Shown: positions 6,890 through 57,080 of the stretch, piece after piece
Position numbering within the stretch: the first letter of the stretch is position 1
Layout of the letters: each line of letters starts with the position of its first letter
Position numbers and translations under genes: made by a program
DNA from: Periplaneta americana
Lineage: Eukaryota; Arthropoda; Insecta; Blattodea; Blattidae
Direction: 5' to 3'
DNA: 64,000 nucleotides
Assembly (NCBI RefSeq): GCF_040183065.1
Contig: NC_091123.1
Coordinates: 106,986,821-107,050,820 of the forward strand
The notes under the pieces: model-generated
Database searches by the model: none
What the model was told of the DNA's origin: nothing
What the model saw: the letters and a program-made list of their open reading frames with translations, nothing else

Positions 6890-7103
6890 GGGGAGAGTCG
6901 GGTAGTATCGGACGTCGGGTAATATCGGACAGTGAGTTTCTTTCATCTACCACACGATGATAGTACCTGATTGACATGGTTACGTTTTTGTGATGTCGCA
7001 TAGAGAAATGTAACCATGTCATTCAGGTACTGCCATATGGTGGTAGATGAAAAAAACGCACTGTCCGATACTACCCGATGTCCGATACTACCCGTCTCTC
7101 CCC
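6890..7103. mobile_element. 214-bp fold-back MITE with TA target duplication
   Basis: The two halves are almost perfect inverted copies over about 95 bp each (GGGGAGAGTCGGGTAGTATC at the left, complement ending at 7103), with a short loop near 6990-7000. TA flanks both sides (6888-6889, 7104-7105). GGGTARTATCGGAC occurs twice in each arm as a subterminal repeat. The TA flanks fit the Tc1/mariner group; the short open frames on both strands are mirror images of the palindrome and not genes. Confidence 0.85.
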
Positions 7104-7830: not shown

Positions 7831-8080
7831 GTCCACACCTGTGGAGTAACGGTTAACGCGTCTGACCGGGAAACCAGGTGGCCCGGGTTCGAATTCCGGT
7901 CGGGGCAAGTTAGCTGGTTGAGGTTTTCTCCGGGGTTTTCCCTCCACCCAGCATTAGCAAATGCAGGGTAACTTTCGGTGCTGAACCCTGGACTTCTTTC
8001 ACCGGCATTAACACCTTCATTTAATTCAGATGCTAAATAACCTGAGATGTTGATACGGCGTCGTAAAATAACTTACTAAA
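7831..8080 (+). mobile_element. SINE-A (tRNA-headed SINE), full length
   Basis: Starts GTCCACACCTGTGGAGTAAC, has a tRNA-type box B (GGTTCGAATTCC) near 7888, the conserved GAGGTTTTCTCCGGGGTTTT body and the TTGATACGGCGTCGTAAAAT 3' end. The tail runs into the (ATGT)n microsatellite. Six copies of this family occur in the window (see also 27391, 33147, 34572, 41476, 53515), several with target duplications. Confidence 0.92.
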
Positions 8081-11013: not shown

Positions 11014-13209
<2,196 letters not shown>

Positions 13210-20111: not shown

Positions 20112-20340
20112 CCGGTGTAGCTCAGTTGGCTGAGGCGCTTACCTGCCGATCCGGAGTTGCGCTCGGGCGTGGGTTCGATTCCCTCTTGGGGTGATTACCT
20201 GGTTGGGTTTTTCCGAAGTTTTCCCAATCGTAAGGCGAAAGTCAGGTAGTCTATGGCGAATCCTCGGCCTCATCTCGCCAAATCTACTTGCTATCGACTC
20301 TAAATAACCTAGTAGTTGATACAGCGTCGTTAATAACAAA
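20112..20340 (+). mobile_element. SINE-C (second tRNA-headed SINE family)
   Basis: Box A TAGCTCAGTTGGCTGAG and box B GGTTCGATTCC form a tRNA-like head. The body has GATTACCTGGTTGGGTTTTT and ends GTTGATACAGCGTCGTTAAT, resembling the 3' end of SINE-A. Two families with different heads thus share one tail type. No clear target duplication. Confidence 0.82.
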
Positions 20341-33780: not shown

Positions 33781-34571
33781 ATAAGGGTCTGTCCACGAGA
33801 AAGTGTCCTGTTTTTGTGAAAAATAAAAGTATGAATGTTGGATCTTACTTCAATTAAAATTGAAGTCAAGGCATTGAAGTTAATATTCTTGGCACTAAAA
33901 GTGATTATATTATCTTATTTATATAGGTTTTCATGCATATATGCCAAGATGAAATAGTATCGAAAAAATCCCTAAATAAGGTATATATTTGCAAGATTAT
34001 TGAACATAAAAATTTTGTAGTATTGAATAATTTTTTCACATTAATCAGTTCTTGACATCTTTAACTGTGGTTTATCAGACAGGATTTCTTATTTCGTCAC
34101 CAATTATTAAGAAAAATTGTATCCTTAATTGAGATCATCTTCTTTGTCCGGATACTAACGACATTTTAGAAAAATTACAATAAAATCCTGTAGACTGCAG
34201 CCATCTCCAGGACACGTCTAAATCTGCTAGTGTTACTGTTGCTCTAGAGGTGGGAATAGCTGTCAAGGTTTTAATATCCCTTAGTGCATCACAAAATAGT
34301 TCTCAATTGTGTCCAGATACTAACACAACAACTGATCCTTGAAACCATTTTGTTACCTGCAGTGCAAGTTTCTGTTTCTGTGGTGACTTATGCATTGGTC
34401 GTAGTAAATTCGCAGAATTACGTCCCTCACAAGTAAATACATACCGTGACATTCCTCACAATGTGTGTGTTTGTTGGTACCACGAGAACTTCGAAAATCT
34501 ACAAGTTTTGGTTTCACAATATCTTTCTAGTTTGTCCACTCCATTGTTTGTGACCCAAGTGATAAGAACTG

Positions 34572-34834
34572 GTCCACACCTGTGGAGTAACGGTCAGCGC
34601 TTCTGGCTGCGAAACCAGGTGACCCGGGTTCGAATCCCGGTCGGGGCAAGTTACCTGGTTGAGGTTTTTTCCGGGGTTTTCCCCCAACCCAATACGATCA
34701 AATGCTGGGTAACTTTCGGTGCTGGACCCCGGACTCATTTCACCGGCATTATCACCTTCATATCATTCAGACGCTGAATAACCTAGATGTTGATACAGCG
34801 TCGTAAAATAACCCAATAAAATAAAAAATAAAAA
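34572..34834 (+). mobile_element. SINE-A copy with 10-bp target duplication
   Basis: Full-length plus-strand copy ending AACCCAATAAAATAAAAAAT. ATAAGAACTG at 34562-34571 and 34835-34844. Nested in the unplaced DNA transposon. Confidence 0.95.
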
Positions 34835-34979
34835 ATAAGAACTGTATGAATTACAATTGTGCTGTGTGTAAATCAAAGTTTATCAGTCTGAAGATTTCCT
34901 GACGAAAAATGTAGCCTTCAAGTGCAGTATCGCCAGTGGAGAATGGTTGACAAGCGGTATGAAGACATTCATTGGAGGA

Positions 34980-35590
34980 AGGATTAAATGATGCCATTGA
35001 TGATTTGAAAGAGCAGTTACCATTCTTCATGACTCACATTTTTAATCAAGAGCAATCACAAAGATGCTTTAAGACTATCAGGAATATGTCTTAAGTGAAA
35101 ATGTTGCGATGCAAGTGGATTTCGCAGAGAACTATTCTTGCAACTATCAAGACGAGAATACAATCTGCACATTGGTCGAATCGCCAAATAGCGCTGTTTA
35201 CTGCTATGGTATGGTATGGAAAAGATACATGGAACAGTTATGTAGTAGTTTCTGACAATATATCACATGATAGAGAGTGTGTTGACACGTTTCTGCGAGC
35301 TATAATGGCGAAAAGAATCTTCTGTTCAAATATCTGCGTGTATTATCAGATGGAGCTGCATCGCAGTTCAAACATAAATACAATTTTGCCAGTATTACTC
35401 CTTTGAAAGATGATTTCAATCTGAAAAGTCTCAAACGGACATTTTTTTTCTGCATCGTCTCACGGGAAAGGTTCTGTCGATGGTATTGGAGCAGTGGCAA
35501 AGCTCCATGTTTGGAACAACATACGCTCGCAGAAAACATTGCTTCGTAATGCTACTTCCATGAATTCTGCGAAAATCTCACTATTTCTAC
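34980..35590 (+). pseudogene. Transposase-like remnant of the unplaced transposon
   Basis: Across three frames: EQLPFFMTHIFNQEQS, a stop, AMQVDFAENYSCNYQDE (Asp codon at 35118), then IQSAHWSNRQIALFTAMVW and SYVVVSDNISHD (Asp near 35255), then LRVLSDGAASQFKHKYNF (Asp near 35348), then SHGKGSVDGIGAVAKLHVW. Three acidic residues in spaced, well-formed motifs with an SHGKG..DGIG block suggest an RNase H-fold DDD/E-type recombinase. I recall such proteins as uncharacterised in insect and fish genomes but cannot name the superfamily. At least three frame breaks and one stop make it inactive. Confidence 0.65.
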
Positions 35591-36418
35591 TATTTCTGTG
35601 CCATTAACTAAAACTGAATCTTTTAAGACGAACCTTGATCAAAAGTAGGAAACCATAATTACAGTTAAAGGTACACAAAAAATTTACCAGGTGACTGCTC
35701 TTTCCCCTTATGTTATTGGCTTTAAATATCATTCAGTGGACTCAGAAACTAATCTGAAGGTTGTAAATATGAGAATCTAAAATATTGAAAGGAATAAGGG
35801 AAGAACAGAATGTATCATTTCAAGTTTGGTCACATTCATTTAAATTCAAAATTGTGTATAACTATTTTGGTTAATTATTGTCTTTCTTGCACATAATAAA
35901 TTTTCTGTAATTCCAAAGGCTGATTTAAAGATTTACTAAAGTTTAGTGTCAACACGAACATTATTTACTGCATTAGTTTTCGGGTATTAATATTTGTCCT
36001 GATACTAACGTCCAGATACTAACAAGCGGAACTTTGTAGCTATTAATATTTCACAATAATGCAGTTATTGGAAGATAAAATAAATATGCTTAATTATAAA
36101 ACATATGTTGTATAAGTGTTCCCTGATAATGAAAACATTAATAAATCATTACAATGAGGAGAGTTTTCACCGTAATTTATGTACCACTTTATCTTACCAA
36201 GTTCCTTGTCCAGATACTAACGGAAGATACATGTGTGTTTTATTCAATATACAAGTGGAAAAATGTTAATAAAAGAACTAAAAATACAAGATGGATAAAT
36301 AGTTAACAGATTCATACCAGAAACTTTGTTGTTTAATTTATATACTGTATGTGATATCAAGTTTTGTAATTGAAATATCTGAGAAATGTCCGGATACTAA
36401 CGCTGGACAGACCCATAA

Positions 36419-51313: not shown

Positions 51314-51857
51314 GTAATTTACTAAAAAAATAACCCGAGTCATAACGTCGTTCGTAACATTGATTTTACATTGGATATCCATGTAATTTATTAAAAAAAA
51401 TAACCCGAGTCGTAACGTTGTCGTTCGTAACATTGATTTGACGTTCGATTTACATGTAATTTATTAAAAAAATAACCAGAGTCGTAACGTTGTCGTTCGT
51501 AACATTGATTTACATGTGATTTATTTAAAAAAAATAACCAGAGTCGTAACGTTGTTGTTCGTAATATTGATTGACTTTACGTTCGATTTTTATGTAATCT
51601 ATTAAAAAAATAACCAGAGTCGTATTGTTGTCATTCGTAAAATTGATTGACTTTACGTTTCATTTATATGTAATTTATTAAAAAAAATAACCCGAGTCGT
51701 AATGTTGTCATTCGTAACATTGATCGACTTTACGTTCGATTTATATGTAATTTATTAAAAAGTAACCCGAGTCGTAATGTTGTCATTCCTAACATTGATT
51801 GACTTTACGTTCGATTTATATGTAATTTATTAAAAAAGTAACCCGAGTCGTAATGTT
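51314..51857 (+). repeat. 76-bp satellite, array 1 (about 8 units)
   Basis: Units contain AACCCGAGTCGTAATGTTGT, TCGTAACATTGATTGACTTT and ATGTAATTTATTAAAA. Eight GAGTCRTA landmarks from 51337 to 51845. Early units are shorter and more diverged than later ones. Confidence 0.93.
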
Positions 51858-54800: not shown

Positions 54801-55044
54801 GACTTCCTGAGTGTACTTAACTGGACGAGATTGAGTTCCTAAGTGAAAGGCTTTGCTACTGAAGGTAAAAAGGAATCCTCGGTTCTCTCTTTCTCATTTG
54901 TTTCAAAATCCTAGCCGGCCAATAGGAATTTAGGTAACAAAAATGAAAGGGAAAAGGTGGCGCTATGGGCGATATGCTAGCGATGCGAACTCTGTTGGTG
55001 ACGTGGTCGACGAGATGATCCGCTGATGCGTCGAGCTCTGCTCA
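51858..55044. mobile_element. LTR-like TG...CA insertion in the 76-bp satellite, 3187 bp
   Basis: TGTT at 51854-51857 and 55045-55048 flank a segment starting TGAGGCTACG and ending GAGCTCTGCTCA. Removing it and one TGTT restores an unbroken satellite unit (GTCGTAATGTT then GTCATTCG). No coding frame or matching terminal repeats seen; it may be a large solo LTR or an unknown element. It carries a SINE-A and inverted AGAGACCTGCAAGAGAGCGA copies (53056, 54745). Confidence 0.7.
53515..53756 (+). mobile_element. SINE-A copy with deletion in head
   Basis: As other copies but lacks about 11 bp between box A and box B (GGTCAGCG joined to TGAAACCAGG). No clear duplication. Confidence 0.92.
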
Positions 55045-56415
55045 TGTTGTCATTCGTAACATTGATTGACTTTACGTCCCATTTATATATGTAATTTATT
55101 TAAAAAATAATCCGAGTCGTAATGTTGTCATTCGTAACACTGATTGAATTTACGTTCGATTTACATTTAATTTATAAAAAAATAACCCGAGTCGTAATGT
55201 TGTCGTTCGTAACATTGATTGACTTTACGTTCGATTTATATGTAATTTATTAAAAAAAAATAACCCGAGTCGTAACGTTGCCGTTGGTAACATTGATTGA
55301 CTTTACGTTCGATTTACATTTAATTTATTAAAAAAATAACTCGAGTCGCAATGTTGTCATTCGTAACTTTAATTGAATTTACGATCGATTTATATGTAAT
55401 TTATTAAAAAAATAACCCGAGTCGTAATGTTGTCATTCGTAACATTGATTGACTTTACGTTCGATTTATATGTAATTTATTAAAAAAATAACCTCAGTCG
55501 TAACGTTGCCGTTGGTAACATTGATTGACTTTACGTTCGATTTACATTCAATTTATTAAAAAAATAACTCGAGTCGCAATGTTGTCATTCGTAACTTTAA
55601 TTGAATTTACGATCGATTTATATGTAATTTATTAAAAAAATAACCCGAGTCGTAATGTTGTCATTCGTAACATTGATTGACTTTACGTTCGATTTATATG
55701 TAATTTATTAAAAAAATAACCCGAGTCGTAATGTTGTCGTTCGTGACATTGATTGACTTTACGTTCGATTTATATGTGATTTATTAAAAAAAATAATCCG
55801 AGTCGTAATGTTGTCATTCGTAACATTGATTGACCTTACTATCGATTTATATGTAATTTATTAAAAAAATAACCCGAGTCGTAATGTTGTCATTCGTAAC
55901 ATTGATTGACTTTACGTTCGATTTACATTTAATTTATAAAAAAAAAAAAATAACTCGAGTCGCAATGTTGTCATTCGTAACTTTAATTGAATTTACGATC
56001 GATTTATATGTAATTTATTAAAAAAATAACCCGAGTCGTAATGCTGTCATTCGTAACATTGATTGACTTTACATTCGATTTATATGTAATTTATTAAAAA
56101 AATAATCCGAGTCGTAATGTTGTCATTCGTAACATTGATTGACTTTACATTCGATTTATATGTAATTTATTAAAAAAATAACCCGAGTCGTAATGTTGTC
56201 ATTCGTAACATTGATTGACTTTACATTCGATTTATATGTAATTTATTAAAAAAATAACCCGAGTCGTAATGTTGTCGTTCGTGACATTGATTGACTTTAC
56301 GTTCGATTTATATGTGATTTATTAAAAAAATAACCCGAGTCGTAATGTTGTCATTCGTAACATTGATTGACTTTACGTTCGATTGATATGTAATTTATTA
56401 AAATAATAATTCGAG
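55045..56415 (+). repeat. 76-bp satellite, array 2 (about 18 units) with higher-order period
   Basis: Landmarks GAGTCGTA/GAGTCGCA from 55108 to 56411 recur every 75-79 bp. Three variants in the order C (AACGTTGCCGTTGGTAAC), B (CGCAATGTTGTC, TTTAATTGAATTTACGATCG) and A (standard) occur at 55266, 55341, 55417 and again at 55494, 55570, 55646, a 229-bp higher-order unit. Confidence 0.93.
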
Positions 56416-57080
56416 TCATGCTGTGTGTGTGTGTGTACTTTACTTACGAACCCTAAGACCTAGGTTTTATTGTGTGTATATTACATATCACAAGTGTATA
56501 GCAAAGTTATAGAAAAAAAAATACCTGAAAAGTGTGTGCCTCCGCCCGTGGCTGTAGAACAATAATAATGATGATAATGAAGCATGGCATTCTGCGTATA
56601 GGCTGTTTGGTCTCCGGTGTTGGGAAATAATGTAGGTGATCTCGTTTAGCCTAATAATGTATAGTTAACTTACAAAAAAAGAAAGTAACAAATATATGAG
56701 TTAAAGTTGGGAAAATTTGAAATTGTTATATACAGCAAGCTATAGAAAGTGAATAATGAAATGTAAAATTACAATGATCACATTTGAGAATGAATCGTGA
56801 ATGAATGAATGAAACACAACTTATCACATTCTTTATATTCTACACCAATTACAACTGAAAACAAAGATGCACACATTAGAATGACAGTGATATCCATGAT
56901 TATGTATCGGAAGCTACAAAACTGGCGTGATTATATACTGTTTTTTTTTTGTTCTGAAAATAATGTATTTGTCAATTTAACACTCTGTATGTTCAGCACG
57001 TTACATACAGAACTCGTGAGAAGCTAATACTATCGCTGTCACGAAACTCTCCTTAACATACGAGGTTTTTGGATGACGAC
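56416..57080. other. No feature recognised
   Basis: Flank of the satellite. A 72-codon frame at 56809 has no motif. Confidence 0.5.

Follow-up and report, generated by a model that had tools for sequence, protein, structure and literature searches.

To which class of mobile elements does a DNA transposon belong when it carries short inverted ends, a broken transposase gene and repeated motifs near both ends, and how could such an element have spread? This question is raised by a locus of Periplaneta americana located in a stretch of 64,000 nucleotides (hereafter the window; NCBI RefSeq assembly GCF_040183065.1, contig NC_091123.1, positions 106,986,821 to 107,050,820 of the forward strand). 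Direct reading of the letters places the element at positions 33785–36414 of the window, with the tetranucleotide ATAA adjoining each end. It is probably a non-autonomous, internally deleted cut-and-paste transposon of a lineage whose transposases carry three predicted catalytic aspartates (DDD), mobilised in trans by means of an array of motifs placed at fixed distances from its ends. In eight families of the same genome, including that of the window, these distances were kept while the sequences diverged.

Subterminal motifs and their layout in eight families

A first-pass annotation, made from the letters of the window, had reported six copies of one motif on a single strand and had proposed that they are transposase-binding sites. 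The motif search retrieved these six copies, all on the forward strand. Two lie on the left side, M1 (34145–34159, also supported by comparison between families) and M2 (34310–34324), at 360 and 525 bp from the left end respectively. The other four are R4 (35995–36009, 420 bp from the right end), R3 (36009–36023, 406 bp, in tandem with R4 and with one mismatch), R2 (36207–36221, 208 bp) and R1 (36387–36401, 28 bp), the last of which adjoins the right inverted repeat. Their number within the window is not striking when up to three mismatches are allowed (9 copies versus 4.8 expected, with 7 of 100 shuffles reaching 9); for the best 13-mer with at most one mismatch, the element and its flanks hold six same-strand copies versus two or three in eight approximate dinucleotide shuffles.

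The arrangement of the motifs was compared with that found in 15 relatives of the same genome (L046, L051, L063 and L065–L076), taken from 110 transposase matches by a non-random choice that favoured open frames and differing identities. Ten of them, corresponding to seven families besides that of the window, have a motif that is repeated in the vicinity of each end. The letters of the motif differ between families around a common shape, TGT-N9/10-AC, and the representatives of the eight families contain 5 or 6 copies each versus 2–3 in their shuffles (eight approximate shuffles each). In the orientation of the transposase, the first motif is found at 360, 356, 359, 362, 358, 356, 359 and 357 bp from the left end, and the second follows 155–169 bp further. 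Motifs on the other side lie at 27–29, 195–217 and 383–414 bp from the right end, the intervals inward from the last motif being 166–189 and then 185–198 bp, and an inner tandem partner lies 21–23 bp away in families other than that of the window. In five families, the left and right motifs all lie on the same strand.

Around these fixed distances, almost everything else has changed. The transposases share only 28.8–48.0% identity over the 28 pairs of the eight families (local BLASTP), and the sequences of the intervals are close to the identity of shuffled sequences (mean of 61–65 versus 62–64 percent, one pair reaching 77). Furthermore, the seven relatives differ in the distance between the end of the frame and their first right motif, which ranges from 41 to 462 bp. 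The end distances were not forced by the method, since the end finder covered a wide range, up to 700 bp to the left of the first motif and up to 160 bp to the right of the last one. In six of the eight families (those of the window, L046, L063, L072, L070 and L074), the ends are marked by a 4-bp duplication.

Several observations weigh against a general and constrained layout. No array was found in five of the 15 relatives (L051, L066, L071, L073 and L076); the frames of L051, L066 and L073 are broken, whereas those of L071 and L076 are open over 636 and 582 aa. The last two may belong to a sister group whose ends are built differently. In the same shuffle test, L071 and L066 do not stand out (3 copies versus 2–3). 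No convincing ends were obtained with the end finder for L071, L066 and L076, and none at all for L069. A SINE-like stretch (SINE, short interspersed element) occupies the place expected for the right end of L076. Within the families that carry the array, the tandem spacing is 14 bp in that of the window instead of 21–23 bp, the inner tandem partner is absent in L046 and L067, three families (L067/L072/L075, L068 and L069) have their second left site in the opposite orientation, and L069 contains two further forward matches inside when three mismatches are allowed. The ends of L069 match but are devoid of duplication, and those of L068 were chosen by visual inspection close to where they were expected (9/13 matching, AATT on both sides), so that the end distances of these two families are not independent. 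Similarity of the motifs is weakly linked to that of the transposases (Spearman 0.16, 980 of 5000 permutations being as high; Pearson 0.35, 186 of 5000), and the eight families were all drawn from a single genome. The argument is nevertheless not weakened by the ends of L068 and L069, because it is carried by the six families whose ends are fixed independently.

The spacings also show a tendency towards helical phasing (Rayleigh R of 0.65 at 10.5 bp for 24 spacings, naive p of 4e-5, broad peak at 10–11 bp), which is suggestive only because the spacings are not independent of each other. Globally, the role of transposase-binding sites proposed for the motifs is strengthened by the similar arrangement seen in seven further families, the binding itself being something that we infer.

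Ends, copies and target site duplication

The 11-bp terminal inverted repeats reported at first pass were confirmed by direct reading: GGGTCTGTCCA at 33785–33795 on the forward strand (also seen by comparison of copies) and its complement TGGACAGACCC at 36404–36414 on the reverse strand (also seen by a genome pattern search). They are flanked by ATAA at 33781–33784 and 36415–36418, as found by direct reading and comparison of flanks.

A search of the genome (3.23 Gb, 91 contigs) with the element gave at least 81 matching stretches, of which 37 other loci were taken for comparison. Both ends are recognisable in 32 of these loci (all except L010 and L042–L045). Together with the window they provide 33 insertions, which reduce to 28 distinct flank pairs because five copies occupy one common site and L019 and L029 share the same simple-repeat flank. 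Identical 4-bp flanks were found in 27 of the 28 pairs, the exception being L013, with WTAW as consensus and sites such as ATAT, TTAT, ATAA, ATAG and TGAA; the identity extends to 5 bp in none of the 33 insertions. For the TTAT insertion common to five copies, the flanks joined at a single TTAT have nine matches in the genome, with 2–3 mismatches over 26 bases, and the reversed control has none. These nine matches appear to be empty sites of the surrounding repeat, and as such they provide direct support for the 4-bp duplication. The boundary proposed from the window, GGGTCTGTCCA next to a 4-bp duplication, is borne out by these copies.

The right end can also be used on its own to retrieve the family. 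A 22-base right-end pattern, with at most two mismatches, occurs at 36 places of the genome, versus one per strand for the reversed control. According to their coordinates, these are the window, 33 of the 37 compared copies and two new places (C7:104489095 and C14:69167714). A majority sequence built from 29 copies shares about 97–99% identity with the copies, except for one at 93%.

Transposase remnant and probable loss of autonomy

The remnant of the transposase gene, delineated from frames and translations, extends approximately from 34343 to 35781 on the forward strand; it is broken by frame changes, interrupted by a SINE and devoid of its start and N-terminal part. The damage is not peculiar to the window. 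Indeed, in the majority sequence of 29 copies, the longest stop-free frame does not exceed 154 codons and the transposase is split over three frames. The distance from the second left motif to the conserved SKF..LRP block is 93 bp in the family of the window versus 667–905 bp in the six relatives where this block was found, which indicates that the start and the N-terminal part of the transposase are gone. Among the 110 transposase matches of the genome search, those belonging to this family are stop-bearing or short pieces. The family thus looks non-autonomous, since the reading frame is disrupted in its majority sequence, from which the start of the transposase is missing, and the simplest reading is that it spread in trans after losing its own enzyme. 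It counts against this reading that none of the copies read combines an intact transposase with exactly these ends. An element ending near C7:104489116, with a transposase piece 64% identical to the homologue P0001 about 1.3–1.7 kb ahead of that end, may be the partner in trans.

According to alignment and structure prediction, the remnant belongs to a widespread lineage of animal transposases for which an RNase-H fold and a D-D-D triad are predicted. Examination of the predicted structure of the homologue P0001, a check proposed with the first-pass annotation, places D182, D262 and D304 as in an RNase-H fold, and these residues are nearly invariant in a 67-row alignment. The presumed catalytic codons of the window copy lie near 35118, 35349 and 35479. 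Three aspartate motifs had been pointed out in the remnant; QVDFAENY and LSDGAASQF agree with the predicted triad, whereas VVSDN is probably not catalytic, the topology of the model designating QVD, SDG and HGKGAVD as the probable triad. The aspartate of VVSDN is nearly invariant in a 70-row alignment but is replaced by Glu in P0001, the closest relative. An Asn at the third position of the triad in L072 does not fit this assignment.

At first pass, the combination of features had fitted no superfamily that could be named with confidence. No Pfam family was found above cut-off for the joined remnant, 10 homologues, the 37 and 70 members of the alignments or the open L063 frame. DUF7869 is a weak hint only (best E of 8.3e-5, in 2 of 70 alignment members); in the three members with coordinates given, its match falls on the catalytic part. 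NCBIfam gave nothing near a cut-off for four proteins, and a sequence search of solved structures with a 37-row profile gave a single match, at an E of 0.59. Foldseek searches against the PDB and viral models returned no match at E <= 0.001. Integrase cores predominate among the 50 weaker matches of each second-look listing, accompanied by IstA and Mos1/Metnase, and a V-K CRISPR-associated transposon (CAST) transposase appears in one of the two listings. The peptide words HGKGAVDG, HGKGPVDG and HGKGACDG were not found in the searched literature. In the same lineage, the transposase is fused to a SUMO-protease domain (PF02902) in P0134, P0144, P0153, P0155, P0160, P0173, P0175, P0177 and P0214, and P0151 carries an OTU-protease domain (PF02338) in the same protein.

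Relationships with known superfamilies

The element had been put forward as the best candidate of the window for an undescribed class. This is not supported as stated, since AT-rich 4-bp duplications and inverted ends of 12–13 bp, or 21 bp when imperfect, are already reported for Sola2, with AWWT, ATAT, AAAT and ATTT as duplicated sites in the sections of the source available to us (Bao and Jurka 2013, PMC3627910). The family of the window has comparable features, i.e. a 4-bp AT-rich duplication and 11-bp inverted ends, and 11–12 of 14 end positions match in L046, L063, L067, L070 and L072. DDD transposases were reportedly described in Sola by Bao and coworkers in 2009, and the predicted triad agrees with this definition. 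The element is therefore best described as Sola-like, Sola2 being the best guess, a likeness of ends, duplication and triad.

The most serious alternative is that the element is an ordinary member of Sola, most likely Sola2, with a subterminal layout that is known or trivial, so that only a family name would be new; we consider it about as probable as doubtful, with a slight lean in its favour. The ends, the AT-rich duplication and the predicted triad speak for it. On the other hand, compared with the description in the available sections of the source, the consensus is WTAW here versus AWWT in Sola2 (PMC3627910), TTAT and ATAA do not fit the latter, and some relatives have duplicated AGCA, TGCT, AGTA or AGCT. 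Furthermore, no fixed-distance array was found described for Sola in the searched literature, of which parts were accessible and outside which the original Sola paper and its supplements lie.

Other systems share single traits with the element. The direct repeats of Sleeping Beauty, a Tc1/mariner element, are spaced by about 165 bp, and its duplication is TA instead of 4 bp here. In the accessible part of the source, its inverted repeat/direct repeat (IR/DR) ends are described as inverted repeats of about 220 bp, each with an outer and an inner direct repeat bound by the transposase (PMC7827188), in contrast with the asymmetric ends and mostly one-strand sites observed here. Hermes, from the hAT superfamily, also has binding motifs that are asymmetric between its two ends, but these are many short motifs at the tips, with five in the first 55 bp, according to the portion seen of PMC10368747; the motifs described here are few, longer, about 155–200 bp apart and at near-fixed distances. 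Kolobok and piggyBac share a 4-bp duplication and short inverted ends with the element but are specific for TTAA, as given in the excerpts consulted (PMC9587614, PMC10045372, PMC2872659). Kolobok was ruled out by the duplicated sites, which include ATAT, TTAT, ATAA, ATAG and TGAA instead of TTAA alone, and piggyBac by its CC..GG termini versus GGG...CCC here and its TTAA versus a varied duplication. Ginger elements have an integrase-type catalytic domain (rve) recognisable by sequence. This domain is not among the eight Pfam families listed for the 70 alignment members at E <= 0.01, and the predicted fold resembles integrase cores.

Proposed mechanism of mobilisation

According to the proposed mechanism, a full-length relative would supply the transposase in trans, and the transposase of each family would recognise its own motif. 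Several subunits would bind the same-strand subterminal motifs at set distances, the unlike ends would be brought together over segments of roughly nucleosome length, and cleavage at GGG...CCC would be followed by insertion into WTAW with a 4-bp stagger. In the family of the window, the founding deletion is located directly inside M2 and left both arrays intact, which would be the outcome if an enzyme acting in trans required them.

The motifs might instead be promoter elements of the host or of the transposase gene, such as transcription-factor or insulator sites, rather than sites of synapsis. This is unlikely: the six copies do share one strand relative to the gene, and their binding by the transposase is deduced, but they are found at both ends, with one next to the inverted repeat on the right, have been retained although the gene of the element no longer works, and change from one family to another although these families face the same host factors in one genome. 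Less likely still is a layout merely inherited by families that split too recently for the spacing to drift since, even if these families presumably share an ancestor and R2–R3 measures 185–188 bp in six of eight, their transposases and intervals have diverged too far and the variable distance behind the frame implies indels that should have blurred the 360 bp too.

Mobilisation in trans through the array is the preferred reading, and a chromatin or helical reason may lie behind the spacing. The intervals of about 155–200 bp resemble the nucleosome repeat and tend towards whole helical turns, which is suggestive. A bolder proposal, which we regard as doubtful, is that the transposases of this lineage, which may constitute a separate superfamily, assemble on an array of fixed geometry, in which the sequence of the sites is free while the end distances are conserved and tend towards whole helical turns over about 155–200 bp. 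If true, its transpososome would be built around a DNA loop of nucleosome length, perhaps around the nucleosome itself.

Other features of the window

The SINE that interrupts the remnant is tRNA-like and lies at 34571–34835 on the forward strand, between ATAAGAACTG direct repeats; comparison of copies indicates that it is absent in all 35 other copies that cover its place, out of 37 compared. Six long copies of the same SINE are found in the 64 kb, at 7831, 27652, 33405, 34571, 41737 and 53515, the five others sharing 87–94% identity with that of the element, and a 60-bp piece lies at 20296. The window also contains a MITE-like (miniature inverted-repeat transposable element) sequence of about 210 bp at 6890–7100, with GGGGAGAG ends, doubled GTCGGGTAGTATCGGAC / TGTCCGATACTACCCGA units and TA flanks. 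A 494-aa open frame at 11488–12972 resembles, as judged by reading only, the transposase of another family. At 51368–51857 and 55044–56417, a few kb from each other, lie two satellite arrays with a similar unit of 76 bp.

Significance

The eight families present in one genome constitute a natural experiment in which enzyme and site diverged while the layout hardly moved. This layout provides a testable rule for the joining of ends by the transposase and a way to find non-autonomous relatives devoid of coding sequence. No paper on the mechanism at Sola ends was recognised in the literature searches, as judged by titles or the beginnings of abstracts; if the lineage is Sola, the layout would supply an end architecture for this superfamily. 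More largely, it bears on the use of nucleosome-scale DNA loops by transposition complexes.
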